DNA from: Pyropia haitanensis
Taxonomy: Eukaryota > Rhodophyta > Bangiophyceae > Bangiales > Bangiaceae
Direction of reading: 5' to 3'
Assembly (NCBI GenBank): GCA_008729055.1
Contig: SDUX01000008.1
Location: 248,001-312,000 of the forward strand
Length of the DNA stretch: 64,000 bases
This document shows, one piece after another, positions 7,491 to 39,704 of the stretch. Numbering within the stretch: the first letter of the stretch is position 1; each line of letters starts with the position of its first letter. A program made the translations under genes and the position numbers. Under the pieces are notes generated by a model that saw nothing but the letters and a program-made list of their open reading frames with translations, did not search any database and was not told where the DNA came from.

Positions 7491-10400
7491 TCATTCAAAC
7501 GCGTACGTGGAGACCGTGTTGGAGAAGGCCCCACCGACGTAGAGCAGCCCCCGCTTGACGTCGACGGCCAGCCCCTCTGGATCGACATCGCCCTGGCCAC
7601 CCGCCTCAAACACCGCTTGCGTTGGCCGGTTCGTCGGGTGGTTGGACGCGGCAGACACAAACCGCACCGCCTGCACGTCGGTCACGTCCCACAGCGTCAG
7701 CACCGACGTGCGCTCCAGCGCAACCACCGCGTAGACGCGACCGTCGCGGGGGTAGATGGCCACCGCCTCGGGCTCACCGCCCTTGTCATCTGACCGGACG
7801 TCGCGCAGGTCTATCTGCGACTGCGCCGGCTCGTCAGGGTCCACCTCAGAGTTGAAGATGGAGGGGTAGAAGCGCTCCTGGATGCGCGCCAGCAGCTCGC
7901 CACTGTCGTAGACCACCGCCCCCGTGCGAGCGCTCAGGATCGAAAAGGAGCGCCCGCCATAGGCGTACAACGCCCGCTGCGTGTTGGTGGCCTCATCGTA
8001 CCCGTCTGATCGGGCGACAAGGAGCCGTCCAAGGGCCGCGTCGTCTGCCACAAGCGCGGCCAGCTCGGGGGACATGGTGCGGTTGAGCTCCGACAGCAGG
8101 CCCGCCGCGCGCACCGCCTCGCCATCCCGGGCGTCGCCCTCGTTGGCCATAATTAGATACACCTCCTTGTCCACCGGGGAGGTGAACTTGACCATCCCGT
8201 CGGGCTGGGGCATCCCAAACAGCTGCGGATACGACCGGATGTTGATGCGCCCGTCCTTGTCGGACGCGTCCAGGCCGTTGCCCGGCAGCGAGCGGTTGAC
8301 GTAGCCCAACGACTTGACCTCTGCGACCACCCCTTCCAGCAAGTCCACCACCGCAAGCGCGTTGTTCTCTTGCAACACCACGTACGCGGTGGTGCCCGAG
8401 ATGGCCACGTACTCGGGCTCAAAATCCAGCGACGCGACGTCGCTGTCCACCAGCCTGACGCCCTTGGCGCGCAGCTCCGCCGCCTTGCCATCGAACGCGC
8501 CAAAGCCCGCGTCCACGACCGCCCCCGACGCGGCCGTGTAGATCCACGCAGAGCCGGGAATGGACGCGCCCTCCCCCTCGCACGCGGCGACCAGGAAGGC
8601 ACAGTCGTCCGACCAGGTGATCTGGTCTGGGAGGAAGCACGCGTCCTTGAACAGGCGGCCCACCGTCAGGCCCGTCACGGCGCCGCCGCGGCCGACGGTC
8701 GGCGACAAGAGGGCGACGCGGCCCTTGTCCGCATCGTCGGCGGCGGCGAGCGCCACCGCCACCACCCCGTCGGCCGCGCACACCGCCACGCTCGTCGGGC
8801 TAAAGTTGCCAAACGCGACCGACGAGAGGAGCGACACGGGCACCGCGCCGGGGGTGTACACGTCTACCGCGCCGACCTGCCCGTTGGCGGCGTACAGGGC
8901 GCCACGGCGCGCGTCAAAAGCAACAACTTCTGCGGCGCCGCCGTCGGGCTCATTATCCCGCCGGAAGGTCGCCCTGTTGACCAGCCGCAGCCCGTCCGTG
9001 CCGCCTACCGTGTGGTCATTGACGAGCGGCGGGGCGGGCGCCGCCGGCTGGTCACAGACGGTGGCGCCATCGAGGGCGCGGCCCAGGTGCAGCTGCGTCA
9101 CGGCCGTCGCGGCGGCGCCGCCGACGCCAAAGTCGCTGTCGCTGGCGAGGAGGACCGTCGCGGCGTTGACAACGACGAGGCCCTCCTGCTTGGACGACCC
9201 CGCCCAGTCGGCCGTCCCGCCTGCCGTCCGCGCGGAGTCCCACACGAGCACCTTGCGGGCGGGCGTGACGCCGACGGCGGTCAGCGGGCGGGCGCCATTG
9301 GTGGCCCGCTCCAACGACAGGTTGGCGCCCCCGTACTTGGTGTCATCCAGCTTGGTCGTCGACGCGTCAATGTCCACGCGGAACAGCTTGACCTGCCCCA
9401 CCGCCCGCTCTAGCACCAGCATGCCCCCGTCGGGCAGGCCCGTCGCCGCCGACACCTTGAGGTCCTTGGCCGCGTTGGCCGCGACTGTGTAGCCGGCCGG
9501 CGGGCTCCCCTCCAGCGCGTACATGCCCGCGTACGACAGGCGCGCCGCGTCGCGCGCGTCCACATGGATGCCCATCCGCACCGCCCGGATGACCACATTG
9601 TCGACGAGCCCCGCGTCGGCGGTCGCGCCCAGCGGGCTCTGCATAAACGCGGTGAGTGACTTGCCGTCGGCGGCCACCGCGAGCGCCTCGAGGCCACGGT
9701 TCTTGCGCCGCTCCAGCAGCACGTCGGGCAAGGCGCCGACGACCGGGTAGGGGGCGTCGGCGAGCGCCACGACGAGCCCGTGCGGCACGTACCGCGCGAG
9801 CACCCGGCCCGTAAGTCCATGGACGACGAGCACCGACGGGGCGTACTCCTCCACCAGCACCAGCAGGTCCGTCCCGGGGATGGGCGCCACGTCCTCCGTG
9901 TCCACCCCGCCCACGTCGCGGCGCAGGGGCGCGCCCACACAGCCGCCCGCGTAGGGCGTGTCGTCGCGGTCCGTGTTGGGCAGGCCGCTTAGCGGGCGGC
10001 CGTCCGTGCCGCGGAGCGGCACGGAGCGGGCCAGCTCGATCCGCCCCTCCCCCGCCCCCCCCCCCGGGGAGAGCGTAAAGTAGGCAAGCGTCGGCGCAAA
10101 GCCGGCCACGGGAAAGCCCCTGCCGGCCTTGCCCGCCGCGGCCGGGTAGGTCACACCCCCCTCAATCGCCGCCAGCGCCGCGCACGGCTGCGTTGGCCCC
10201 TGGTCCGTGACGCCGACGAGCAGGCCCGGCGCGACGGCGGCGAGGCCCGACCCGACCGCCGGCCGCTCCCCACACACCGACCCCGCGTCGCGGGCGGCGG
10301 CGCCGCAGCCGCGGCCGCGGCCGCCGGCAGAGGCGGGCAGCCACGGGTTGAGGGCGCCCAGCGGCGTCGGCGGCAGCGTCCAGTTGGCCACCACCCGCGC

Positions 10401-10549
10401 CACGCAGTCGCCGGTGTGGGCGGTGGGCGGGTCCGCGAGGGGGACCCCGCGCGGCAGGGGGGGGGGGGGGTGCCGCTGACCGCCGCCGCCGCGGCGACGG
10501 CAGCCGCGGCGGCGGCCGCCGCCGCCGGCATCCACCGGTGTGGCGCCAT
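7491..10549 (-). CDS. Secreted phytase-like esterase domain fused to a choice-of-anchor I domain
   Basis: The start at 10549 gives MAPHRWMP followed by an Ala/Val-rich hydrophobic stretch, a likely signal peptide. The reading frame must change once in the G run near 10456-10470. From there about 990 residues are open to the stop at 7491. The first half contains VDTEDVAPIPGTDLLVLVEE and RRKNRGLEALAVAADGKSL, typical of the esterase-like phytase domain. The second half contains NFSPTSVAV, EPEYVAISGTTAYVVLQENN, FTSPVDKEVYLIMANEGD and GGEPEAVAIYP, typical of the choice-of-anchor I beta-propeller family. Such proteins are usually extracellular and some are annotated as phosphatases. No introns are visible. 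Substrate is not determinable from sequence. Confidence 0.85.
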
Positions 10550-13268
10550 GGCAGTGGCGGCACAAAGGGGGAAGGAGGCGGTGGAGGGGGGGGGGGCGGC
10601 GGCGCCGACGTGCAGTGTGGGGGGGAGGAGGGACGGAAGCTGCCCCACCGCACGTCGGCGGCAATGGTACGGATGCCACCCACGCCGCTGGGCCGGCACC
10701 AGTGATGCCGCCCACGCCACGACCCGACGCAGCGGTGAAGGGGCACGGGAGCACTTGAAGGAGAGCCGCGCCGCGGCGGGCGCCGCCTGCCGCGCTGCCG
10801 CCGCCGCGGCCCGCCGCCGCGCCGCCGCCCGCATCCACGGACCACCAACAGATTCCCGCCCCGGCCCCCCTCCCCCTCCGCCCCCCCCCCCCCCCCCCAC
10901 ACTTCTTCCCCATTCCGGCCCGCAACTGCCGCCGGCCAGGCGGGCATCGTCACCCAGAGCGCATGCTAGCTGGAACGTTGCGTCCACGCCAGCGGCCAAC
11001 CGCCGCCAGGCGGCCCGCCATGATGCGGGGCACGCCGCCGGGGCCACAGCCGCCACGGCACGCCACCCCGCCGAGAGCCGATGCCGCCCGGGCGATCCCG
11101 ACTGGCGCGCCCGGCGCGTGGGCAATGGGGACATCCGCACGGACCCCCAGCGCACAGCAGGTCTGACAACCCTGACAGGTGGCGGGCGGGTGCGCCACCC
11201 CGCGCGGGTCCGCCATTGTATACGGACGGGCCTGTCCAGAGCCGCCGCACCCGCGCCGCCCGCTGCACCGCTACACGGGAGAGGGGATCAGCGGGCCGGA
11301 TCAGCCATCATGGCGGGAGCACCACGGGTCGGGGACGGGCGGCCGGTCGTCGCGGGTGGTGGGTAGTGACGGTGGTAGCCACGGGTGGCCACGCCGCTGG
11401 GGAGACGCGCGCGTGCCCCGCGGGGGCGTGATCGACAGCCTTATTCAGCGCCCAAAGGTTCGCACCGGATCCCGCATCGCCCGCGCCGATTTTGTTCGCG
11501 TCCGCACCAGTCGGTCGGCAGGGCACTGCGCGATTCCGGCCGGCCGCCCGTTTCGCCGCCGCCCCGCGGCGCGGCCGCCGTGGCCGTGTCCGTGGGGTGA
11601 TGGCGACGCCGCCCTCCTCGCCGGCATCCCGTGAGGGCGGCGGTCGTCCACCCCTCTCTCCGTCGCATACAGCCGCCCGCGCCGCGCCCATTGGACCGGG
11701 TGGTCGCAACGTTCCCGCCGCCCCCGCACCGCGGCGCCGCGCGCCCGGTCCCGCTGGCGGCGGGCGCGTCTGACAGCCGTGGCAGCGGGTTTGGCTGATG
11801 GCGTCGGCGGCGGCGGCGTCGGCGGCGTCGGCGGCGGCAGCGACGGCAGCCGCGACAGCAGCCGCGGCGGGAACGGCGGCGGCGGCAGCAGCGGCGGCAA
11901 CTACGGCCCCACCACCCCCGAGGCTGGTGGCAGCGTAGCAGCGCCGGTGGTGGCGATGCCTTTTCCGTCCGTCTGCCCCGTGGGCTTATAGGTGACAGCC
12001 ATCGTGTGGGCCGCAGCGGGGATACGTGCCCATGGTGGCGGCGACGGCTGGGACGGCGTGAGGTGGCGGGCTCCTCCCCCCCTGTGTGTGCAGTCCCACT
12101 GTTGGACGCCAGCGCCCGGGGATGGTGGCTTGTTTTGCGGCGCGCACGGAGGCGGACCCGTTGAGGGCGCACGATGGAGCGGTACTTTGGGGGAGCGCGA
12201 GGGGCGGGGGTCGGGCGGGTTGCTTGCGGCTGACCCTTTGAGGGGGGGGGTGTGGATGAACGCGGACGGGACCCGTTCTGTCAACACCCTGGGCAGTGGT
12301 GGCAGCTGCAGCAGTTGTGGCGACTGCGGTGGCGGTGGCGGTGGAGGTGGTGGTTGAGGGGGGGTGGCGGGGACCCAAACCGTCCCCACCAGCCGCTCGC
12401 CCCCCTGCCCCCCACTTTCCCGAGCGCAGAACGCGCGATGGACAGCATACACGACCGTCAATCCCATCGCCCAGCATCTTTAGTGAGCACGCCACCCACC
12501 CTCCTGCCAATACACGCGCGCCACCGCTCCCGCGCGCCCTCCATTTTCCCCTCACCCTCGCCCCCAGCACCCAGCACATCCTCATGAATCGTGCCCCACG
12601 CCGCCATACATCCACCCTCTTACGCCCTGACACGCTACGCCACACACACCTAGATACGAAGAGAAGCGCCCGCGTGCTCTCCCCTACTCGCTCCATCACG
12701 CTCGCCCTGTCACCCGTTACCACCCTTTGTCACACACCACCGAGCAAGACACTTACGCAAAATAAAAGTGCTCGTCGTTGTCAGCAGTCCGATCGCTGCC
12801 ATGCAGCCGGGAGCCCCCGCCCACTTGGACGCTCTTACAAGGCAACACGACGTCGACTCTCGCGGGTCACTTCACCCATAGTCTGATAGCACCGCATCTC
12901 CTGGCGGACCCACAGCCGCCCCTCCCTGGCCGGCCTCCAACCCGCCCACCCCGCTGGTCGACGTCAGCACACCTCCTCGACCCCTGGCAGCCTCTCCTTT
13001 GCCGAACGCCACCAGTCTCTCTTTCGACCACTCTCCGACTGGCCTCTTCGACTTTCCGAAAGCCACATTCCTCTCCTTTCCCGCTCCCCTGGCGGCTTCT
13101 TCTTCCCCCCCTGGCCAGTCCCTCTTGCCTCTGCTCCCCCGCTTGCCCCCCATCCACACCTTGCAAATATCGAAACAAAGCAAGCGACGAGCAACCGAAT
13201 CTGGCAGACTGGACAATGAAATATGCTATTTATTATCATCTTATTTTCGCTCAATTCAAGTCCTGAAA
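10550..13268. other. Long region without a supported gene
   Basis: 10550-11000 should contain the promoter of the minus-strand phytase-like gene. 11000-12480 is GC-rich with open frames on both strands but no recognisable domain. A Gly/Cys-rich plus-strand end at about 12290-12357 followed by an AATAAA at 12764 could be a gene end, but I cannot support it. 12480-13260 is C/T-rich and non-repetitive. Confidence 0.4.
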
Positions 13269-15063: not shown

Positions 15064-16352
15064 GGGGGGAGGAGCAGTGGGGGTACTAGATGCGACGGGG
15101 GGGGGACCGTCGGCGGCGGGCGGCGGGCGGAGTCCGCGGGCCGACGGCGCCCGCCACCGCGACTCCCCCAGCGCAGGGCCACGCGGCGTCAGCTCTGTTT
15201 GGTGAGCCACAAAAAAAAAAAAAGCAGAAAAAAAAGGGGAGGCCACGAACCAGGGATGCAAGTTTACGGTGTGATCATTCGCAGAAGGATTCATTTCAGT
15301 ACAATTATAGAAATGCAGACAGTAAAACTTCAGAAAGAATTTGTGGGAGAGTTATGAGATTCACGTTCCAAATATACCAAAAGTATTCCGACCGTTTCGC
15401 CTGGCGATGTACCTCGTCACCGGCAATGGCAGCGGCTGACGGCGGCACTGCGGGCAATGCAGGGCAGCAGTTTTGCGGGGAGGGAGCGGAGCAGCAGGCA
15501 ATGCCAGGCAGCCGTTTCGCTACGCTGGGGGGGGCGGCGCTGCGGGCATTTATAGACAGCCGTTTTTAGAGGGTGGTGCCGCTGGCTGTGTCGCCAGAGC
15601 CGGTTTGTGGCGGGAGCACTGGAAAAACCTGCCTGCTCAGCTCCCGCCAGGCGGCGCTCGGGCCTGCCCCTCACGCCACACTGCCTGCGCTCTCGCCTCA
15701 CGTGCAGTATCGTGGATGGGTCGTGGCTGCGCCTGCCGCGTGCCCCAGCCCCCCTCCCAGGTGCACAGAACTCATGCGCGGCCATCACCCACTGCCGACC
15801 CTGCCCCCTCCGATGTAGTTTTAGTTTTTAGTTACCGCTTAAAGAGAGGAAATGGAAATCAACTATCGACACGTGGTGCCCACGGTGCTTAATTTCAGGC
15901 TGCCCACATATGGTTTGATTGAATACAGTGAAATTGTTAGCTGTATTAATCTGACTATACTTATCTTTTTTCAACCCTGCCACGAACAGTGGACTGGCGC
16001 GACGGTGCGCGGCGGGAAATTTCGGCCGGATCGTGGACGGCCGCGGCTCGTGCGCGGTCCCGTTTGAATCGCCGCGGCGCGCGGCGGCAGCGCCCGCGCC
16101 CGCCGCGGCGGCGCCGCCCTCCTCCCGCCGCGCGGCGTCCGCGCCAACGGGGCGGCGGCCGGTGGGCGGCCGGCGGCACCCCCCCCCTTCCCCCCCCCCT
16201 CCCCTGTGTCTTTCCCTTCCCCCCCCTCCTCCTTCTTCCCATCGGCACCCGTCCTCCGCGCCGCCCCCCCCCCTTCCTCTCATCATTCCTCCTCGTAGCC
16301 GCGGCGGTCCCCCCCACCCCCCCCCCCCCCCCCCGGGAGGCTGTCCTTCGCT
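15064..16352. other. Intergenic region between the Nudix gene and NUP155
   Basis: 15200-15420 and 15810-16000 are AT-richer. 15420-15590 holds about three degenerate units of roughly 48 bp sharing GGCAGCCGTTT-like ends. 16160-16340 is a C-rich tract leading to the NUP155 start. No gene is supported. Confidence 0.5.
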
Positions 16353-16477
16353 ATGGCGTCATCCATGGGCTCCCCCACCCCCGCCACCGGCCTCCTCGAC
16401 GCCCTCATTCCCTTTTCCAACGCCGACACCGCCGCCGCCACCGCTGGCAGCGACGGGCCAGCCGCGGCGGCGGCGTC

Positions 16478-16525
<48 letters not shown>

Positions 16526-18292
16526 GTGGGCGCCGTCCCCCCCCCCCCCCGCCGCCGCCGCCGCCGCCGCCTTCCCCGCCGCCCCCAGCCTCGCATCGTA
16601 CGCGCCGTTTGGGGGGCCCCTCACCGGCGGCGGCGGTGGTGGCGGCGGCGGCGGCGGTAGCGGCGGTGGGGGTGGCGGCGGTGGCGGCGGCGGCGCGCCC
16701 GACCTCGCCCTCCGCGCCGTCCGGCCGCTGCCGCCCGTCCTTGTTGCCGCCCGTGAGGCGGCGGCGTGGTCCTTTGCAGGGCTGCTGCCGTCGCTCGGCT
16801 CGGCGTGGCTGTCCATCGACCACACCCTCTACGTGTGGCCGCTGCCGCCGCCGCCGCCGGCCGCCGCCGCCGACGGTGCCGCCCCGTGGGCGGCGGCCGC
16901 CCCCCCCGGCGGCGTCGGCGGCGGCGTCGGCGGCGCGCCCGCGGTGCCACCCGTGGGGGTGGACGTGGCCACCTACACCACCGACACGCGGCAGGTGGTG
17001 GTGGCGGTCACGGCGCTCCCCCCCCCCCCGCCACGTTTGTCGCCGCCGTCGTTGGCCTCCTCGCCGTCGCCACCCCCGCTACCGTCACGCTCCTGGCGGT
17101 GGTGTCGGCGGCGGCGGCGGCGGGCTCGAGCGGCCGCCGCCTATCGCTGCGGCCGACGGGCTGGGCCGCCACGCCGGCGGCGGCGGTGGTCGCCGCCGCG
17201 CCCGCGCCGGGGGGGGGCGCCGTCCTCCTCGCGGGCGCCGACGGCCGCCTCCACCTGCTGCGGCTGCCGCTGGCGGCGGCCGCCGCTGCCGACGCCACCG
17301 CCCCCGCCGCCGCCCGCCGGTCGCTGCCGTCGCGGCTGCTCGCACCCCTGGCGGGCGCCCTCGCCGCGGCCGCCCCGACGGCGGCGCCGACGCTCGTCAC
17401 CATCCACGCGTCGACGCTGGCACGGGCGCTCGCGCCGCTGTCGTCGCCGCCACCCCTCGTCGATGTGGTTGTCGACGCGCCACGGCGGGTGGCGTACACC
17501 CTCGACGCGGCCGGCGGGCTGGCGCTCTACCGCCTCACCAGCAGTGGCGGTGGGGGGGGTGGCGGCGGCGGCGGCGGGCGTGTGGACGGCGCCGTGCTGG
17601 TCGCAACGACCGACGTGGGCGCCGACGCGGCGCGCGCGGCGGGCGGCCGCGGCGGGCGGACCAAGCGGGCGGTGCTGGCGGTGGCGGCCGCGCCCGCCGG
17701 CACGCCCGGCGCGCACGTCCTCGCCGTCACGTCGGCGGGGGAGCGGCTCCTCTACTCGACCGCCGCCGCCGCCGCCGCCGCGGCGGCGCCGGCGGCGGGC
17801 GGCACGCCGGGCGGGCTGCTGTCGCCGTGGCGGCCGGCGGCGGTGGCCGGCCGGCCGGCGGCGGCGGCGGGCGCCCCTGGCGGCGGCGGCGCCCCCGCCG
17901 ACGCCGCGGGCGTGGCGCTGCGGCTGGTCGGCTTCCGGCCGCCGCCGCCGTCGCCCGCCCGCACGTACCGGTCGGCGGCGGTGGCGCCGTCGGGGGCGGT
18001 GCTGCTGACGGCGGCGGCGGCGGCGGCGGGGGCGGCCGCGGGGGGGGCGGACCTGCTCCTCGCGCTGACGCCCGTGGGGGGGGGGTTGACGTTGCCGCGG
18101 TCGACGTGGGGGGGGCCCGCGCCGCGCTCGCCGCCGCCGCCGCCGCGGCGGCGCGGGGGGGGGTTGGCGTCGGCCGGGGGCCGCCGCCATCGCTCGCGAC
18201 GGCCGCTGGGGGGGGGGGCACGCCGTCGACCGCGGCGGCCGACGCGGCGGCCGGCACGGTCATTGCCGTTGCGGCGGCGGCGCCGGCCGCCG

Positions 18293-18333
<41 letters not shown>

Positions 18334-20044
18334 GGCGCCACCGCCGCCGCCGACGCGGCGACGGTGGACGACGCGGACGCGACGGGCGCGGCCGCGTGGA
18401 TCGCCCTCACCGCCGCCGGCGCCGCCGTCTACGCCGTCCCGTCGTGGGCAGAGGCGGGCGCCCGCGCGCTCGCCGCGCCGTCTGCCGCCGCCGTCGACGC
18501 GGCGGTGGCGGCCATGGCCGCCCGCGTCGGCGCCGCGGGCGCGGCGGCGCGGCTGCTCGCCGCCGCGGCGGCGGCGCCGGCGGCGGCCGCCGCGGCGGCG
18601 GCCGCCGCGCTCGGGCGGTACCGCGCGTCGGTGGGGGCGTCGGCCGCCGCGGCGGCGGCGGCGGCGGCGGCGGCGGCCGCGTCGGCGGCGGCGGCGGCGG
18701 CTGGGGGGGGCGGGGGGGGGGGGGGGGGGGGGGGCTGCCACCCCCGGGGGGGGTGCCGCGTATGGCAGGGGGGGGGGGGGGGGGGGGGTACACCCCAGGC
18801 TGGGGGGGCGCCGCCGCCGGCGGCTGGGCGGGCCTGCCGCCGTTTGCCGCGGGCCGCGCCGCCCTGCCGTCCCCCCCTGCCCGTCGCGCGTCGGTGGGCG
18901 GCGCCACGGCCTCCCCCGCCGCGGTGGAGGGTGGTGGGGGTGGTGGTGGTGGTGGTGGTGGTGGTGGTGGTGGTGGTGGCGGCGGGGCGGGCGGCGGGGG
19001 GGTGGCCTTTTCGGCGGCGCACGACGGCCTCGGGTTGCTGCTGGCGCAGACGCTCGGGTCGCTGTGGCGGGCGCCGCTGCTGGCGGTGGCGCCCGCGGCG
19101 GCCGCCGACGCTGCCGCCGACGGCGGCTGGCGTGGCGGCGGCGGCGGCGGGGGCGGCGGTGCGGACGGGGACGCGGCGGTGACGCCCGGCGGCGGGGAGG
19201 TGGCGGTGCCGGTGGTGGTGGCCGTGCCGCTCGGGCGGCTCGAGGCGGCGGCCGCGGCGCTGACACGCCTGGGGCGGCTGCTCGACTCGGGGGTGCTGGC
19301 GCCGGCGTGGCTGCCCGCCGACGGCGGGGGGGGGGGGGGGCGGGGGGGGGGGATCCCCCGAGGGGGGGGGGACCCCGCCCCGGGGGGGGGCGCCGGCTGG
19401 GCTGCCGCCGCCGCCGCGCGCCGCGTTGGCGGCGGCCTCCGCGGCGGCGGCGCCACGCCCGGCGTGGGAGGGGCGGGCGACCCGTGGGCGCGCCGCACCG
19501 TGTCGGCGCCCTACTTTGGCGGCGCGACGGGCTCGCCCGCCACGCCGGGCGGCTGGGCGGTTGGGGGGGGGGGCGGCGGCGGCTGGGCGGGATGGGGGGG
19601 AGCGCCCTGGCGGTCCCCAGCCACACCCGCGGCCGGCGGCAGCGGCGGCGGTGGTGGTGGCGGCGGCGGCGGTGGTGGCGGCGCCCTCGGCGCGCGCGCG
19701 GCGGCGGCGGCGACCGCGGCGGCCACGGCCGCCGCGGCCGCCGCCGCCGCCGAGGCGGCGTCCGTCGCGGCCCTGCGGTGCGTTGCCGCCCGCGCCGCCG
19801 ACGCGCTCGCCGTTGCGTGCATCGCCGCCCGCGCGGGCGGCGTGACGCTCCGCCTGCCCGCCGCCGCGGCGGCGGCCGCCGCCGACGCGCAGGTCGCGGC
19901 GCTGGCCGCGGCGGACGTGTCGCTGCGGGGGGTGGCGGGCGCGGCGGCGCCCGCGGCGGCGGCGGCGCCGCTCGTGGACGCGCTGTTTGAGGCGCTCGCG
20001 GGGGAGGAGGCGGCGGCGGACGCGGCGGCAGCGGCCGACGGCGG

Positions 20045-20091
<47 letters not shown>

Positions 20092-20516
20092 CGCCGCGGC
20101 GCTCGCCGCGACGCTCGCCGCGCGGGCGCCGAGCCTCTTCCCGCCGTCGGCGGCACGCGCCGCCGCGGCCGCCGCGGCGCTCCGCCGCGCCCTCCGCACC
20201 GCCGAGGCGCACTACCACGCCACGACCGCCGCCGCCGCCGCCGACGCCGCCGCCGCCGCCGCCGGTGGGGAGGCCGCCCGCGCCGCCGACGGCGCGGCGG
20301 GCTGGTCCGCCGCCGCCGTCGCGGCGGGTGACACGGCGGCGCGGCTGCTCGCGCCGGTCGTTGGCGAGCTGCCGCCCGCGCGCCTCCGGTCGGTCGTGGC
20401 GGGCCTGACCGCGGCGGGGTCGCTCGCGGCGGCGGTGGAGCTGGCGCTCGCCGCCGCCGCCGCCGCGGCCGCCGCGGCGGCGCGGGCGGCCGCCGCGGGG
20501 GGGGCGGGGGGGGGGA

Positions 20517-20547
<31 letters not shown>

Positions 20548-20844
20548 GCCACCGCCGCCACCGCCACTGCCGCCGCCGCCGCCGCCGCCGCTGCTGCCGC
20601 CGCCGCCGACGCGGCCGACGACGCGCACGAGGCCGCGACGGCCGCCGCGCTCGACGCGGTCGCCGCGGCGCTGTCCGTCCCCGCCACCCCCGCATCCGAC
20701 CCCGCGGGGGACCCGCGCGACGGCGGCGCGGCGCTGGCCGCGGCGCAGCGCGCGGCGGCGCTGGACGTGGCGTGGGGCGCGGCCGACCCCCACTTCCCGC
20801 CCCGGCTGGTCGGCTGGCTCGCCGCCGCGGGCGGCGCGGCGCCA

Positions 20845-20875
<31 letters not shown>

Positions 20876-21221
20876 CTCCCCCCCCCGCGGTGGCGGCGGC
20901 GGCGGTGGCGGAGCTCCTCCGCCGCCCCCGCCCGGCCGTCGAGGCGGCGCTCGTCGCCGCCGCCGCGCCCGCGGCGGCCGACCTGGCCGACGCGCCCGCC
21001 GTTGCCGCCGCGCGGCTGCTGTGGCGGTACTATGCGCGGCACGGCCGGGGGGGGGACGCGGCTGCGGTGCTGCTCGCGCTCGCCGACGCGCCAGACGTGG
21101 CGGCGGGCGAGCGGGGGGGGGGGAGGGGGGGGGGGGGGGGCCACCAGACGCGTCCAGCCGCCCACGTGCAGACGGCCGTGGCGGCGGTGGGGGGAGGGGG
21201 GGCGACGGCGGCGGCGGCGGC

Positions 21222-21259
<38 letters not shown>

Positions 21260-22604
21260 CGCCTCGACCCCGCGGCGGGCGCCGTCGGGGGTGGCGGCGT
21301 GGGCGGCGGGCGGCTCGGCGGCGCTCGCCGCCGCGGCGGCGCGGCTCTTTCCCACCCCGCGGCGACCGGCCGCCCCCCCCCCCACCGCCGCGGCCGTCTC
21401 GCCCGCCGCGGCCGCCGCGGCGGCCGCGTCGTTTGGGGGCGGCGGCTCGCCACTCGACGCGGCCGCCGCCGCCGCCGCCGCCACCGACGGTGACGGCGAC
21501 GGCGGTGGTGACGGCGACGGCGACGTGACGGTGTGGGCGCCGTGGAGCCTCGCCGCCCGCTTTGCGCACCTGTCGCTGGGCGTCCACGCGGCGGCCACCG
21601 GCGGCGGCGGCGGCGGCGGCGGCGGCGCGGATGGGCGGGCGGACTTTGCAGCGGCCCCCGCGGGCGCGGCGGCGGCGGCGGTGGCGGCGGAGCTGGGCGC
21701 GCTCCTCGATGTCGCCGCCGTGCAGGTGCGCGTGCGGCGGGCGCTGCTCCGCCGTGCCGCCGCGCTCCGCGCCGCCGACGCGGCGGCGGCCGCGGCGGGT
21801 GCGCCCGACGGGCGGCCGTCGTCCACGGGCGGCGACGGTACGGCAGCGGCGGCGGCGGCGGCGGCGGCGGCCGCCCTCGACGGCCGCGTGCGGGACCTAT
21901 CGGCGCTCTTCCACGGCTTTATCACCCCCTGGGCGCTGCCGCGCGCGGCGCTCGCCGCGCTGCGCGTCGCGGGCGCGCCCGTCGACGGCGCGGTCCTTGA
22001 CGCGCTCTGGGCCGACCTCGCCGCCCGCGTCCTGTCCGCGTCGGGCATGGACGATGGCGAGCCGCTGGCGGGCGTTGGCGCCGCGCCGCCCGCCGTTGCC
22101 GCGGCGCGCCTCACCGCCCTCGCCGCCGAGGCGGGCGCCGCCGCCGCCGCGGCCAGCCCGTCCGCCACGGCCGCTGCCGACGGCACGCCGGTGGCGGCGC
22201 CCGCCGGCTGGTGTGCCGCCGCGGTGGTGCGGGCGGTGGAGGTGGCGGCGGCGGCGACGGCGCCCGCGGCGGCGTACGGCTCGCCCGCGGGCGGCCGGTG
22301 GGTGCCCGCCGCGCTCGCCGCGGCGGGCGTGCCGCCCGACGTGATCGTTGGCGCGTACGGGGAGCTCGCGGCGGCCGCCGCGGCGGGGCGGTCGCCGGCG
22401 GTGCGCACGGGGGTGCTCCTCGCCGCGGCGGCGGCGGTCGTTTGCTCGTTGCCACCCCCCGGGGGGGGGGGGGGGGGGCGCCGCCTCCCGCCCGCCGCCG
22501 CCGCCGCGGTGCGCGCGCTGGCCGCCGCGCTGCACGCGCGCGTCGGCGACGCGCCGGCGGTGGCGGACGCGCTCGCCGCGCTCGCGGACGCGGCAGGCGG
22601 GTGA
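16353..22604 (+). CDS. NUP155: Nucleoporin NUP155/NUP170 family
   Basis: This is a large scaffold nucleoporin of the inner ring of the nuclear pore. The start at 16353 (MASSMGSPTPATGLLDALIP) leads through low complexity to AWLSIDHTLYVWPL (16801-16842) and VDVATYTTDTRQVVVAV. The N-terminal propeller signature VLAVTSAGERLLYST lies near 17718-17762. The C-terminal alpha-solenoid shows ARLLWRYYARHG (around 21010-21045), LFHGFITPWALP (around 21907), LDALWADLAARVL, and GVPPDVIVGAYGEL (around 22330). Each corresponds in order to human NUP155. The stop is at 22602-22604, giving about 2,080 codons against about 1,390 in human, with the excess in poly-Gly/Ala/Pro. No introns are seen, but the frame changes repeatedly at homopolymer runs (for example 17020-17031, about 18710-18735, and the G42 at 20046-20087). 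Confidence 0.9.
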
Positions 22605-28563: not shown

Positions 28564-28664
28564 GGTCAGATGGCCGAGCGGTCTAAATTGAATTGTACCG
28601 GTAAGGCGCTGCGTTCAGGTCGCAGTCAATTTCATTGGCGTGGGTTCGAATCCCACTCTGATCA
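28564..28664 (+). tRNA. trnL-CAG: tRNA-Leu(CAG) with an 18-nt D-arm insertion (copy 1)
   Basis: The acceptor stem GGTCAGA pairs with TCTGATC, followed by discriminator A at 28664. The anticodon arm GCTGCG-TTCAGGT-CGCAGT gives anticodon CAG, a long variable arm fits leucine, and the T-arm GTGGG-TTCGAAT-CCCAC is perfect. The canonical leucine D-arm GAGCGGTCT-AAGGC is split by 18 nt (28585-28602). Removing it restores a normal tRNA-Leu. A CGGT just 5' of the insertion can pair with ACCG inside it, leaving 3-nt bulges at both junctions, like a bulge-helix-bulge splice motif. A T-rich terminator follows at about 28668. Confidence 0.92.
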
Positions 28665-28960
28665 TTCCTTTTTGTTTTCGCTCCACGTGCTAGAAAAGGT
28701 CTGATGAATGACCCCGCAACCACACACGTGTGTCGTCTTCGGACGTTGGCTGTCCCGTCGTCCTCCTCGCGAGCTGCGTGAGATGACTGATGAGGTGCGA
28801 GCTCTCCTTGCAGCGAGTCCTTTTACCTATGTTCAGTACAGTGACGCACTGCTACGACGCACCGCTCGCACAATGAGACGCCCACCCGGTTCCACGCAAC
28901 AATCATCACGTCCATGCCCGGGTGCTCCATACCCCTTCCCACCATCCGCAAGTGCCAGCC
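28665..28960. other. Flank homologous to the VPS33 3' flank
   Basis: No gene. From about 28800 the sequence resembles 40830-40989 downstream of VPS33 (shared tttacctatgt and ctacgacgcaccgct), part of the tRNA-Leu/VPS33 duplication. Confidence 0.6.
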
Positions 28961-34499: not shown

Positions 34500-35610
34500 G
34501 CTGGTGGCAGCCGTGGGCTGGGTGCCCCCGGTGGTGGCGGCCGCGCCGGCCGCAGCAGCCGGCTCGGCAGCAGTCGCCGGCGTGTCGGCGGCGGCATTGG
34601 CGGCGACGGCGGCGTTGGCGGCGGCGGCGGCGTCGGCGGCGGCGGTCCGCGTACCGATTGGTGGGGTGCGGCGGGGCGGAGCCGCTCCCCCCCGCTCCCC
34701 CGCGACACGGCGCCCGTCACGTACGTGGTCGTCCGCGGTACGGACTTTCGCAACTTTAAGCACATCGCGATGGACCTGTCCACCCGCCTGGAGCTCGACG
34801 AGCGGCTGGGCGTGCGCGTGCACCGCGGCTTCCGCGAGGCGGGCTACGAGCTGTACCACACGCTGACGGGGCGCTACCCGGGGGGGCGGGGGGGGTGCCA
34901 GTACCCACCGTGGCGGGCGCCGCCCCGGCCGTGGCCGCGGCGGCTGGCGCGGCGGACGCGGCGGCTGGCGGCGGTGGGGGCCACGGCGGTGGCGGCGGCA
35001 GCGGCGGGGGCAGTGGGGAGCCGGTGGGCTCACCCAGCACGGGGGGCTCGCTGGCGTCGGCGAGCTCGGGCCCACCGTCCCCGCCCCCTCCTGCCCTCCC
35101 CGCCTCTTCTCCACCCCCAGTGGCTGGTGGAGCCCCCCTTCCCCAACTGCCCCCCGGCGGACGGCTGCGCATTGTGGGCCACTCCCTGGGCGGCGCGGCG
35201 GGCATCCTGCTGGCGCTCCTCCTCCAGGCCGATGGCTACACGGTCGATGCGGTCACGGCCGTCGGCGCCCCCCGGCTGACCGATGCGGCGGGCGCGGCCG
35301 CGCTCGGCGCCGCCCTGCCCCACCTTCTCCGCGTCGCGGCGTACGCGGACGTGGTGCGGACGCTCCCGCCCGGCGTGCGGTATCGCCACTTTGGGCGCTC
35401 CCTCCTCCTCCACGACGACGGTGGCGTGTGGGAGGTGGCGCCGCCTGCGCCCGCCGCGGAGCCGGCGCGCTACTGGAGCGCGAGCGCGGCGCTGCGGGCG
35501 CACCGGACGGGGCACTACTGCTGGCTGGTGCAGCGGGTGCTCGAGCGCCGCTGGGGCGTCGCGTTTGGGCGGTCCAACTTTTTGGGGGGGGGGACGGCCG
35601 CGAGCCCGCC

Positions 35611-35641
<31 letters not shown>

Positions 35642-35873
35642 CCGCCACCGCCGCCGCTACCACCACTGCCAGCGGGAGTGGGGGTGGGGCGGGGGGCGGG
35701 GGAGGAGTGGATGGCGGCGACGCAGCGGCCGCGGCGGGCGTTGCCGCGGCGGCGGCGAGTGGGGGGGAGGGGGGTGGGGGTTGGGGGGGGGGGGGGCGCC
35801 GTCTGCCTCGGGCGCGCTGGCGGTGCTGGGCAGCGCGGGGGGGGTGCTGCGGCCGTCGTTTACGCGCCGCTGA
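33058..35873 (+). CDS. Class 3 lipase (alpha/beta hydrolase) with a very large low-complexity insertion
   Basis: Class 3 lipases hydrolyse acylglycerols or polar lipids. DWVRLSDELALVADLKQDDA and LLPRTQLRYMVLTAP (33058-33200) look like the N-terminal part of the fold. The next core strand, APVTYVVVRGTDFRNFKHIA, appears only at about 34711. LDERLGVRVHRGFREAGYEL and the nucleophile elbow LRIVGHSLGGAAGILLALLL (35171-35200) follow. A probable triad is Ser in GHSLG, Asp in YADVVRTLP and His in RTGHYCWLV. About 500 Gly/Ser/Ala/Pro-rich residues separate two core strands. Frame changes occur at G/C runs, and a pyrimidine tract ending in AG at about 35120 may be an intron acceptor. The likely stop is at 35871-35873 (VLRPSFTRR). 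Confidence 0.75.
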
Positions 35874-36847
35874 CCGCCCCCGCCCCTGGGGCGGCTGCGG
35901 TGCGAGCCTTGTCGCCACCACCGCTGCCGCGGGTGTCCCGCTACGCCGCGCCGCGCCACGCTACAGGTGGGCGGGGAGCGGACCGGCGTGGCAAAGCGGC
36001 ATGGGGCAGGAGGGGGGGAGTAGTCGAGGGGCGGCCGGCGGCCCGCTCCGCACCGCGCCCGGCTTGCTGCAGCAGCGGCTCGGCTGGGAGGCGGCCTTCT
36101 CTGCCGGCACGGGGTGTGCCGGCGGCGCAGCCGCCGGCCGCCGACCGTCGAGCGCGGCGGCGGGTGCCGTTGCCCACAGCGGGCGGCGTGCCGCCTTCCC
36201 CCGCCGCGGCGCGTGTCTCCCAACGCGCAGCGGGCGAGGGTGCCCCTCGAGCGAGCGGCGGTGGTCTGCACGCCATGGGGAGAGGGCGTTTGCAGCAGAC
36301 AGACACACCCCCGAATGACGATGGACTGGACCCCCATGGCGGTTTCCCCCCCCGCCCCCCTCCCTCCCCGCCACCCTCCCGCGGCCTCGTTCAGTTCTGG
36401 CACTCGGCAATAGCCGCCTCGAGCGGCGGCTGGGTTGCTAGCGAGGGCGCCCTCATGGTCTCCCAGCACCAGCACGAGCAGCAACTGCGTCACCTGGACC
36501 TGGTCTATTTGTCGCTCCGCTGGCGGCCTCGACCGCCAACCGGTCACGCGCGTTCTATGAGCCGCTCCCACGCCGCGTGCATGCCAGCCTGCCTCGTCCT
36601 ACCCGACGCTGCCGTCTATCGCTGCCGCGGCGTGTACCCGCAGTCGCCGCGGGCGGTTTGGCCAGTGGCTCACCGTGTCGAGCGACCGTCCCTTCTGCTC
36701 GGCGCACACTTTCAAGGTCGTCAAGAGGATGGGGCGAAACCGTAGGAAAGCCCGAGCAGTAGCGGCGGTTGAACTGGGCCTGCCTGGACTCTGCGGCTGC
36801 CTGCACCAGCGCCTCGTCCTCCCACCGCAGCGACGCGGTGGATCTAC
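35874..36847. other. Intergenic region downstream of the lipase
   Basis: GC-rich, with C runs around 36345-36375 and no recognisable gene. Confidence 0.4.
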
Positions 36848-36970
36848 CACCCGGTCCCTACACTTCTGTGCAAGGTAGCCCTGACGGGGTCGTGCGGGCC
36901 TGTTTACATCAGCCGACCCCCCCACGGAGGCCGTAAACGCCGCTTTGCACAGAAATGTAGGTACCGGGTG
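36848..36970. repeat. 123-bp fold-back (inverted repeat) element
   Basis: Arms 36848-36875 and 36943-36970 are inverted copies matching at 25 of 28 positions. Inside them a second inverted pair, GTTTAC near 36902 and GTAAAC near 36932, extends the stem. No target duplication is obvious. It could be a small fold-back MITE or a structured RNA; there is no coding potential. Confidence 0.75.
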
Positions 36971-37122: not shown

Positions 37123-37223
37123 GGTCAGATGGCCGAGCGGTCTGAATTGAAATCTACCGATAAGGCGCTGCGTTCAGGTCGCAGTCAACATTGTTGGCGT
37201 GGGTTCGAATCCCACTCTGATCA
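37123..37223 (+). tRNA. trnL-CAG: tRNA-Leu(CAG) with an 18-nt D-arm insertion (copy 2)
   Basis: The gene has the same length (101 nt), anticodon (CAG) and arms as the copy at 28564, including GGTCAGA/TCTGATC acceptor pairing. The D-arm is split at the same site by 18 nt (37144-37161) whose sequence differs from the other copy, and the variable arm also differs. The CGGT:ACCG pairing and the 3-nt bulges are conserved. T runs about 10-20 bp downstream can terminate Pol III. Confidence 0.92.
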
Positions 37224-37607
37224 CGCGATTCGTTTTGTTTTTCTTCGCGTAAACGTACAGCAACAAATATGCCGATAAAACTGTCACTACAGTGTTTCTC
37301 CATTCTTGTAGGTCCGGTTCTTGTGAGGGTGATAGTAACCAGAGTAGGTCGACCGGCTGTCATAACAGAGACGAGGAGGTCGACCGCCGAACGATCGCAG
37401 CAAAGAATTACTAGAAAAATGACATTGATAGTCAATTTGCGCCGCGCAAGATCTACACCCGGCGGCAACGACGCTCCACCTGCCGGTGCTGCGTTCCAGG
37501 GTCACGTCCACTGCCGTCACGCACCCCCGTCGTCGCATCCACCATCGTCGCGCCCCCCCCCCCCCCCCTCCCCATATGGCTGATCATCACCTCGCCCCAT
37601 CGCTGAT

Positions 37608-39704
37608 ATGTCTGATCCCCTTCCCCCCCCTGTCCCGTTTCCTGCCTGCATTGAGGCAGTCAAGGCTACCGTCCGAGCTGCTTTTGAGAGGACTGTCCCA
37701 GATCTGACGCATGAGTGGCCCCATGCTGTGGAGAAAACAGCACAAGCGGCGTCGGCGACGTGCGCGGGTCTGCTCGCGGTTGGGACACGTGGCAACCTCG
37801 CTGGCGGCAACATTGAGGAGCCAAGCGACCCCGCACCACTGGCGAGCCCTGCCCGACCTATCCGCCTGGCACTACCCGCGGGCGCCTCCCTACCTGACCA
37901 TTCCAGCTCGTGTGGTAGCCCTACTACGGCATTGACGGCGGCAGGACGGCGCCACAGGCGCCCGCGGCAAGCCATTTCCATTGGGCTCAAGAAGCAAATT
38001 GTACGCCTGCGCGACTCAGGTGTGCCGTGGGCCGTGGTGCTGCAGCAGCTGTCATCCCCCGTCAGCACGGACACCGCTATGAATATTATGCGGAGCGCTG
38101 ACCGCATCCGCGCGTTGCCCAAGGACCCGCGGACGCTGGCACGTGTCAACAGCCGAGAGAGCAAGTGGCCTGTGCTGGACGCGATGCTGTACAAGTGGTA
38201 CATTGCTTTATACTCTCTGGGCCACCGGCGCATCCCCATCACCACGGCGATGCTGCAGGAGGCAGCCACCATGATTGCTCAGCGACTATCTATTACGGAC
38301 TTCGCTGCCAGCCATGGCTTTGTGGGCGGCTTCCTCGCACGCCACGACATCTGCAACGTGGCCATGCATGGTCAAGCCGGCGCGGTCAACTTAGCCAAGG
38401 CGGCTGCCGCGGTGGCGGAGATCAGGCGCAAACTCGAGGGCTACACCCCGGACCGCATCTATAATATGGATGAAACGGGGTTGTTGTGTAGATGCCTTCC
38501 GTCAAGATCATACGTTCCGCGCAAGGACCGCAAGCGGGCCCGCGGTTCAAAGAGCATGAGGAGTAAGGACCGTGTGACGCTGGTGCTGTGCACCAATGCG
38601 GATGCATCTCACGAGCTTCCCGTCGCGATGATTGGCTCGGCCGCCTCTCCTCTGTGCTTTCGCGGAGCTGGAAATGCATGTCCCTTGCCATACTTCTCAC
38701 AGAAGTCAGCTTGGATGGATAATCATGTGTACGCCGAATGGTTCACCACCGTTTTCCTGGCGGAGATTCGCGGGAGGCACAAGGGCGCCCGAGTTGCTCT
38801 GATCATGGAAAATTCGGCTACCCATGACATGACCCTTTCAGCTGATGATGTGGAAGTAATCTACTTGCCACCGAACACGACCGCTGTGTATCAGCCGATG
38901 GACGCCGGCGTGATGGCCGCTTTGAAGCGGCGATACAAGCGCCGATTGATGGCCGTCGTTCTACGATTCTTACCGGTGTTGCCTGTGCCAGCGCCTCCTC
39001 CACCGGACCCCCCACCGGACCCTCCCCCACCCCCCCCTGCCCCCGCCCCGCCCATCGCACCACCTCTCACAGGGCCCCCCCCCCCCCCCCTTCCGGCATT
39101 TCCTCCGTTATCCACGCTGCTGTCCACGCCGTGGGCGCCTGCCGCTGACGGTGGAGCCCAGGCGGGGGCAATCGGCAACGTGAACGTTCGCCCCTGGCCG
39201 GCCCGGAGAGCGGCCGGGGCGCTCGAGTTCGGAGCCACGCGAGTGCGGAGTGATGAGGTGGAGAACGAGCTGTACGCGGCGCTGCTCCCCATACCAGAGG
39301 TTGAGACGCCAACTGTCATGAACTGTGGCCTGGCCGGGGGCGGCCACGCGCACCTCCGCGACGCAGCCACGTTTGTGAAGGAGGAGTGGGACAACATGTG
39401 CGCGTCGTCCATTCTACACTGTTGGATCAAGTCCGACATCGTCCCCGTTATGATGGCGACCAATATGTCATCGAAGTTCGGGGTGTATACAGGGGGCTTC
39501 AACGCGGTGGCCACGGACATGGCTGACATCCTCTCCATGATGAGCAGCACGACACTGCGGAGGGATGCTTTTGCTGGCGAGAGTGTACAGAATGTGGAGG
39601 AGGGCGTGCGACATTGGTTCACAGCGGAGGATGAGGCGGATGCTATCTTGGACACGGTAGACATGATTGCCGCATCGGAGGAGCAGTCACCCCCAACGGA
39701 ATAA
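37608..39704 (+). CDS. Pogo/Tigger-family DDE transposase
   Basis: The frame is open for 698 codons with no frameshift. An N-terminal helix-turn-helix (SIGLKKQIVRLRDSGVPWAV) is followed by a CENP-B-type DNA-binding segment (KWPVLDAMLYKWYIALYSLG through FVGGFLARHDI). The DDE domain shows IYNMDETGLLCRC (Asp288), VALIMENSATHD (Glu401) and YLPPNTTAVYQPMDAGVM (Asp432). The usual second catalytic residue in this family is Asp (LLLDN), so here one acidic residue is Glu. Spacing (31 residues between the second and third) fits the pogo group. A Pro-rich linker near residue 460-500 precedes a Tigger-like C-terminal region. Unlike host genes nearby, the protein has little poly-Gly/Ala. Confidence 0.93.
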   Translation: MSDPLPPPVPFPACIEAVKATVRAAFERTVPDLTHEWPHAVEKTAQAASATCAGLLAVGTRGNLAGGNIEEPSDPAPLASPARPIRLALPAGASLPDHSSSCGSPTTALTAAGRRHRRPRQAISIGLKKQIVRLRDSGVPWAVVLQQLSSPVSTDTAMNIMRSADRIRALPKDPRTLARVNSRESKWPVLDAMLYKWYIALYSLGHRRIPITTAMLQEAATMIAQRLSITDFAASHGFVGGFLARHDICNVAMHGQAGAVNLAKAAAAVAEIRRKLEGYTPDRIYNMDETGLLCRCLPSRSYVPRKDRKRARGSKSMRSKDRVTLVLCTNADASHELPVAMIGSAASPLCFRGAGNACPLPYFSQKSAWMDNHVYAEWFTTVFLAEIRGRHKGARVALIMENSATHDMTLSADDVEVIYLPPNTTAVYQPMDAGVMAALKRRYKRRLMAVVLRFLPVLPVPAPPPPDPPPDPPPPPPAPAPPIAPPLTGPPPPPLPAFPPLSTLLSTPWAPAADGGAQAGAIGNVNVRPWPARRAAGALEFGATRVRSDEVENELYAALLPIPEVETPTVMNCGLAGGGHAHLRDAATFVKEEWDNMCASSILHCWIKSDIVPVMMATNMSSKFGVYTGGFNAVATDMADILSMMSSTTLRRDAFAGESVQNVEEGVRHWFTAEDEADAILDTVDMIAASEEQSPPTE

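Follow-up and report, generated by a model that had tools for sequence, protein, structure and literature searches.

Two genes for tRNA-Leu(CAG) in a 64,000-nucleotide stretch of the Pyropia haitanensis genome, here called the window (C10:248001-312000 in an assembly of 52.9 Mb and 136 contigs), are each interrupted by 18 nucleotides in the D-loop. We consider it very likely, judging from sequence, that these inserts are true ectopic tRNA introns of the bulge-helix-bulge (BHB) type, located at position 20b/21 and cut by the tRNA splicing endonuclease. This interpretation rests on the exactness of the empty sites in intron-free copies, a motif shared among the introns, a genome-wide set of similarly interrupted genes, and coding sequence for two catalytic domains of the endonuclease. 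The inserts are very probably authentic ectopic introns like those of Cyanidioschyzon merolae, now in a new lineage where synonymous gene copies differ in intron position.

The Leu(CAG) genes and their intron-free copies

The first Leu(CAG) gene (copy 1) is located at 28564..28664 and the second (copy 2) at 37123..37223, both on the plus strand and both with a score of 46.5 bits against the Rfam tRNA family RF00005, for which the gathering score is 29 bits. The D-loop of copy 1 consists of GGTCT, the 18-nucleotide insert (28585..28602, +), and AAGGC, and the insert of copy 2 (37144..37161, +) was placed at the corresponding position by sequence comparison. In our own numbering of tRNA positions, used throughout, the insert precedes A21 and is thus located at 20b/21, not at the 37/38 site of canonical nuclear tRNA introns. 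A preliminary description of this DNA had reported intact stems of a leucine tRNA, and every stem was indeed paired in both copies according to Rfam and RNAfold, neither of them having the broken stems of a tRNA pseudogene.

A genome search that tolerated as many as 3 mismatches in the Leu(CAG) anticodon arm returned about 66 places. The 5 exact matches were tRNA genes, namely the two genes in the window and three genes without insert (C2:1364208, C3:1314118, and C7:73696), whereas three places with 2 mismatches were not tRNAs; those with 3 mismatches were not individually inspected. The insert-free genes run uninterrupted through the D-arm as GGTCTAAGGCG. Because these three genes read straight through, the boundaries of the insert are exact, and the location at 28585-28602 given in the preliminary description was borne out to the base. 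Deletion of the 18 nucleotides from copy 1 yielded exactly the D-arm of the intron-free genes, in agreement with the canonical D-loop that had been predicted. The exons of copy 1 were identical to the intron-free exons except for one base in the loop of the variable arm. Those of copy 2 were identical outside the variable arm, where 4 of 11 bases had changed; in the stem of this arm a U-A pair was replaced by a C-G pair, and this two-sided, compensatory change suggests selection on the tRNA fold.

In copy 1, CGGT in the 5' exon (28579..28582, +) can pair with ACCG in the intron (28597..28600, +), forming a 4-bp central helix with a 3-nucleotide bulge on either side. This pairing, already proposed in the preliminary description, was confirmed in both copies, and none of the 4 of 18 bases by which the intron of copy 2 differs from that of copy 1 is located in the ACCG strand. 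There are 4 equivalent cut registers for the insert of copy 1, and the BHB motif is found in the 28585-28602 register. The minimum-energy RNAfold structure of the window copies was a cloverleaf that included the CGGT/ACCG helix, with 6 of 200 shuffled sequences for copy 1 and 5 of 200 for copy 2 folding as well or better.

In the mechanism that we propose, CGGT would pair with the ACCG located close to the 3' boundary of the intron, leaving CUA and GUA as bulges in the pre-tRNA. Cleavage by the Sen2/Sen34 endonuclease on the 3' side of the second base in each bulge, followed by joining of ...CGGUCU to AAGGC... by a ligase, would then give a standard D-loop. The enzyme would recognise the BHB motif and not position 37/38 alone.

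Introns in tRNA genes across the genome

The whole genome was searched with three D-arm-anchored patterns that tolerate inserts, for tRNAs of the Arg/Trp, TAGCTCAG, and Leu/Ser types; a backwards control pattern gave 7 matches for the Leu/Ser type and none for the other two. D-loop introns were identified in 13 of the 14 Arg/Trp matches, the remaining one being an Arg(ACG) gene with an intron at 37/38 (L101), and in 11 of the 29 TAGCTCAG matches. The Leu/Ser pattern gave 26 matches, 4 of which were discarded as non-tRNA on manual inspection, and D-loop introns were present in 6 of the other 22. In total, 30 of the 65 matches accepted as tRNA genes contained D-loop introns of 10 to 23 nucleotides. 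All 30 were read at full length, and some of the 65 were seen as the stretch from the D-arm to the anticodon only. In the best register, 26 of the 28 distinct D-loop introns ended directly before A21. An ectopic intron of BHB type outside 37/38, as suggested in the preliminary description, is the reading that we favour, and these 30 genes carry it well past a single locus.

The catalogue is incomplete, in that the Gly, Glu, His, Pro, Met, Ala, and Ile families lie outside the pattern searches, and a whole-genome Rfam scan, in which 63 of 471 candidates were scored and both window genes were missed, gave no complete list. Standard tRNA finders may also undercount the tRNA genes in this genome, because plain ARAGORN miscalled copy 1 as 28586-28664 and left copy 2 undetected.

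Introns at 37/38 and in the T-loop were assigned manually, with stem pairing or sister copies as the guide. By these assignments, 15 genes contained 37/38 introns (L026, L027, L066, L067, L101, L105, L113, L116, L117, L118, L121, L123, L125, L128, L129), 6 genes contained T-loop introns (L076, L077, L078, L079, L112, L129), and 9 genes contained two introns each (L112, L113, L116, L117, L118, L121, L123, L125, L129). Of the 30 genes interrupted in the D-loop, 7 were assigned a 37/38 intron as well.

The copies of a single tRNA differed from each other. For Lys(CTT), two copies were intron-free, three contained D-loop introns of 13, 17, and 23 nucleotides, and one contained a 16-nucleotide intron at 37/38; exact excision restored the intron-free exon sequence in all 4 intron-bearing copies. 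Intron-bearing and intron-free copies also coexisted for Val(CAC), Asn, Cys, and Ser(AGA), and Leu(AAG) was represented by two matches without and one match with a D-loop intron. For Arg(CCG), D-loop introns were found in all 5 genes identified. It was also noted that two of the Arg(CCG) genes with a D-loop intron (L114, L115) carry a D-stem pair A13-U22 in place of U13-A22, a two-sided change. A separate locus, L098, has an Ile-like 3' half and no recognisable 5' half just upstream, and may contain a long intron, be a permuted gene, or be a decayed copy.

A shared bulge-helix-bulge motif

Every cut that restores the mature tRNA was listed for each D-loop intron and scored for a 4-bp helix in which the 5' exon pairs with the 3'-terminal part of the intron, with cleavage after the second base of each 3-nucleotide bulge. 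A perfect fit was obtained for 16 of the 28 distinct introns, as compared with a mean of 1.8 and a maximum of 7 for shuffled introns (2000 shuffles), and at least 3 of the 4 helix pairs were formed in 24 of 28 (shuffled mean 10.2, maximum 17; 2000 shuffles). These counts include assumptions, based on common ends and on general features of tRNAs, about the mature D-arms of Arg(CCG), Arg(TCG), Trp, Phe, Leu(CAA), and Ser(TGA) and about the variant end used for L113. In the subset of 15 introns for which an intron-free D-arm in the genome served as the reference, and which is free of such assumptions, 11 fitted exactly (shuffled mean 0.86, maximum 5; 5000 shuffles), so that the geometry first described for copy 1 exceeds chance. 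Restricted to Watson-Crick pairs, 6 of these 15 introns fitted, as compared with a shuffled mean of 0.17. Among 25 bulge geometries scanned in the same subset, the 3-4-3 geometry had the highest count, 11, followed by a runner-up with 5. The opposite pairing, of the 5' end of the intron with the 3' exon, was perfect in 1 of 28 introns, a value matched by 678 of 2000 shuffles, and was rejected. An intron-free T-arm was available as a reference for the T-loop introns of Asn and Trp only; the Asn intron showed a perfect BHB motif at 59/60 and the Trp intron showed none.

Several observations count against the interpretation of the inserts as BHB-type introns. The perfect 4-bp helix was absent from 12 of the 28 distinct introns, namely all 4 distinct Arg(CCG) introns, both Cys introns, 2 of the 3 Trp introns, 1 of the 2 distinct Phe introns, the Leu(CAA) intron, one Lys intron, and one Arg(ACG) intron. 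Related intron copies are not independent of each other, and with one intron per tRNA type 4 of 7 fitted, a count reached by 3 of 5000 shuffles. Several of the 20 pre-tRNAs that were folded had a minimum-energy structure other than the cloverleaf. Finally, the presence of three intron-free Leu(CAG) genes means that the window genes need not work, and a particular window gene may be dispensable. Some of the non-fitting introns may use relaxed motifs, by analogy with those reported in C. merolae and archaea (PMC3978253; this and the papers cited below are drawn upon in excerpt).

If the inserts were instead kept, the mature tRNAs would have enlarged D-loops, and the A-box does remain intact in the interrupted genes. 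We consider this highly improbable, since the BHB helix occupies G18G19, which are needed for the tRNA elbow, the BHB register is precise, paralogues have standard loops, and introns at 37/38 accompany D-loop introns in the 7 genes assigned above.

Trp and Phe genes

Trp and Phe are each served by one kind of nuclear tRNA. A search for the anticodon arm of tRNA-Trp, allowing 3 mismatches at most, identified 5 places, and the 3 exact matches all contained D-loop introns. Of the other two, one was a decayed Trp-like copy (L131) whose anticodon is CTA and whose arms are broken; the second, with 3 mismatches on contig C76, was judged to be unrelated without retrieval of its sequence. The corresponding search for Phe identified 9 places, including 3 exact matches, all with D-loop introns, and a decayed copy in which the D-loop intron was still present (L132); the other five had 3 mismatches each and their sequences were not retrieved. 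No intact intron-free algal gene for tRNA-Trp or tRNA-Phe was found in these anticodon-arm searches of the assembly.

Two intron-free Trp genes of bacterial type were identified on small contigs, L018 on C76 and L013 on C83, with G+C contents of 52% and 59%, respectively. L018 is flanked by genes for elongation factor Tu, NusG, and ribosomal protein L11, which we take to be a bacterial gene order around tRNA-Trp, and L013 is located next to a DUF892 gene. The gene neighbourhoods are bacterial rather than organellar, and contigs C76 and C83 (L001, L018, L013) probably represent associated bacteria that contaminate the assembly rather than algal genes. All intact algal Trp and Phe genes found thus carry D-loop introns, and the cell must therefore remove such introns, unless an intron-free gene was missed. 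As far as the gene sequences indicate, the alga very probably depends on the excision of introns from the D-arm, which is left uninterrupted in nearly all other eukaryotes.

A second alternative is that both window genes have decayed or fallen silent, that their insert always stays unspliced, and that the cell obtains its Leu(CAG) from the three intron-free genes. The existence of those genes speaks for it, as does the occurrence of decayed Trp-like and Phe-like copies in the genome. However, apart from the variable arm, the exons of the window genes match those of the intact copies base for base, the double change in copy 2 preserves a pair, and the BHB helix is maintained in both copies. Runs of T are located 3' of both genes, T5 at 28669..28673 (+) and T4 at 37233..37236 (+), which are likely to be RNA polymerase III terminators. 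Furthermore, no intact intron-free algal Trp or Phe gene was found, so the genome must cope with such inserts. On the grounds of the intact stems, the identical exons outside the variable arm, and the compensatory pair, we rejected the classification of the window copies as pseudogenes, and we retain it as an alternative that we regard as improbable. The flanks of the two genes had no long stretch in common, the only shared sequence being CAATT (5 bases) on the 5' side.

Splicing endonuclease

The genome encodes two PF01974 domains, at C10:3831560 (66 bits) and C9:5461457 (32.4 bits, cut-off 27). The exon at C10:3831560 is Sen34-like, with the solved Sen34 structure 6z9u, presumably the human protein, as its best match (E 1.4e-13), and the aligned Y, H, and K, which we take to be the catalytic triad, are retained. 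The exon at C9:5461457 was considered to be Sen2-like on manual reading. In C. merolae, excerpts of the literature list Sen2, Sen34, and Sen54 and no recognised Sen15, and a dimer of catalytic subunits has been proposed to act on sites outside 37/38 (PMC3978253). By analogy, such a dimer would be the likeliest mechanism in the present alga.

Relatedness of the intron sequences

Intron sequences were more similar within tRNA types than between types (0 of 2000 label shuffles), a result driven mainly by Leu(CAG) and Tyr; without these two, the within-type mean (-0.23) was met by 59 of 500 letter shuffles. A single mobile intron family was considered and rejected, since the similarity between types was unclear, the mean score being met by 35 of 500 shuffles and the best pair by 117 of 500. 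A pattern for the Leu(CAG) intron gave 0 matches in the bacterial and archaeal genomes searched and 0 in viral contigs.

Comparison with known systems

Ectopic tRNA introns in eukaryotes have so far been described mainly from one hot-spring red alga and from nucleomorphs, and inserts elsewhere are usually called pseudogenes, according to excerpts of the literature. The rarity outside Cyanidioschyzon, some nucleomorphs, and some prasinophytes that the preliminary description had noted is consistent with the available parts of the reviews, and the host is itself a red alga. The present genes share with those of C. merolae that they are nuclear tRNA genes of a red alga with introns in the D-, anticodon, and T-arms, with BHB motifs, and with several introns in some genes (PMC9602550, PMC3978253). 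The sites of the D-loop and T-loop introns correspond to the junctions of permuted genes reported for C. merolae, 20/21 and 59/60. Unlike C. merolae, the present species belongs to the Bangiales and has multi-copy families, in which synonymous copies with identical exons may be uninterrupted or interrupted either in the D-loop or at 37/38, as in Lys(CTT); the ending of 26 of the 28 D-loop introns before A21 is a further difference.

The nucleomorph of Guillardia theta also has introns in the D- and T-arms, with up to three per gene and removal demonstrated by reverse transcription PCR (Kawach et al. 2005, cited in PMC4090602). Many of the introns there are described as lacking a defined BHB motif, whereas 16 of 28 D-loop introns fit here, and the present genome is nuclear and of ordinary size. 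The Thermoproteales archaea resemble the alga in having transplantable BHB sites; the positions observed here (before A21, 37/38, and 59/60) are all among those listed for archaea, including 20/21 and 59/60. In Thermoproteales, similar introns recur across tRNAs (PMC4033280), in contrast to the unclear similarity between types here. No Bangiales case of ectopic tRNA introns came up among the papers listed by searches of an open-licence library, which holds few subscription papers, and this does not show absence from print.

We lean slightly towards the broader proposal that D-arm splicing is obligatory in nori-type red algae, involving all intact nuclear Trp and Phe genes, and that gain, loss, or replacement of introns at 20/21, 37/38, and 59/60 is frequent enough for synonymous copies with identical exons to differ in the presence, place, and sequence of their introns. 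If so, nori-type genomes would offer a natural experiment on how tRNA introns arise and on an endonuclease no longer bound to position 37/38. Where tRNA introns come from, and what a eukaryotic splicing endonuclease recognises, become directly testable in a multicellular, cultivated kind of alga that has many ectopic introns along with intron-free sister copies to serve as internal controls.

Surroundings and other loci

An open frame with Tc5-type DNA-binding and DDE_1 transposase domains (37584-39704, +) starts about 360 bases after copy 2, and an inverted repeat with 40-nucleotide arms that are 80% complementary (36848-36887 and 36931-36970) is located about 150 bases upstream of the same gene; the repeat may mark where a mobile element ends or be a small hairpin element in itself. 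A class 3 lipase domain is encoded in an open frame at 34760-36745 (+). The gene at 7491-10949 (-) encodes a protein with Phytase-like and choice-of-anchor I domains and with relatives in red algae and many bacteria, the nearest named relative being MMPV_002370 from Pyropia vietnamensis (85% identity over the searched domain); it is perhaps the product of an old gene transfer.

Two 18S rRNA copies contained group I introns near the 3' end according to Rfam (L110, 1785-2088; L111, 1795-2093) and differed from each other at many sites; such introns are typical of Bangiales. The G+C content was 83% to 87% at 16001-22000 in the window. Bangiales genomes are reported to be GC-rich, at 64% to 68%, with 70.06% in Neoporphyra haitanensis (PMC7423979, PMC8752119). 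A non-tRNA sequence with GGTTCGAATCC was identical in ten loci on contigs C1 and C5, with matches on C6 at a spacing of about 6.5 kb and further contigs among the matches listed, and this recurrent sequence probably represents a family of mobile elements.
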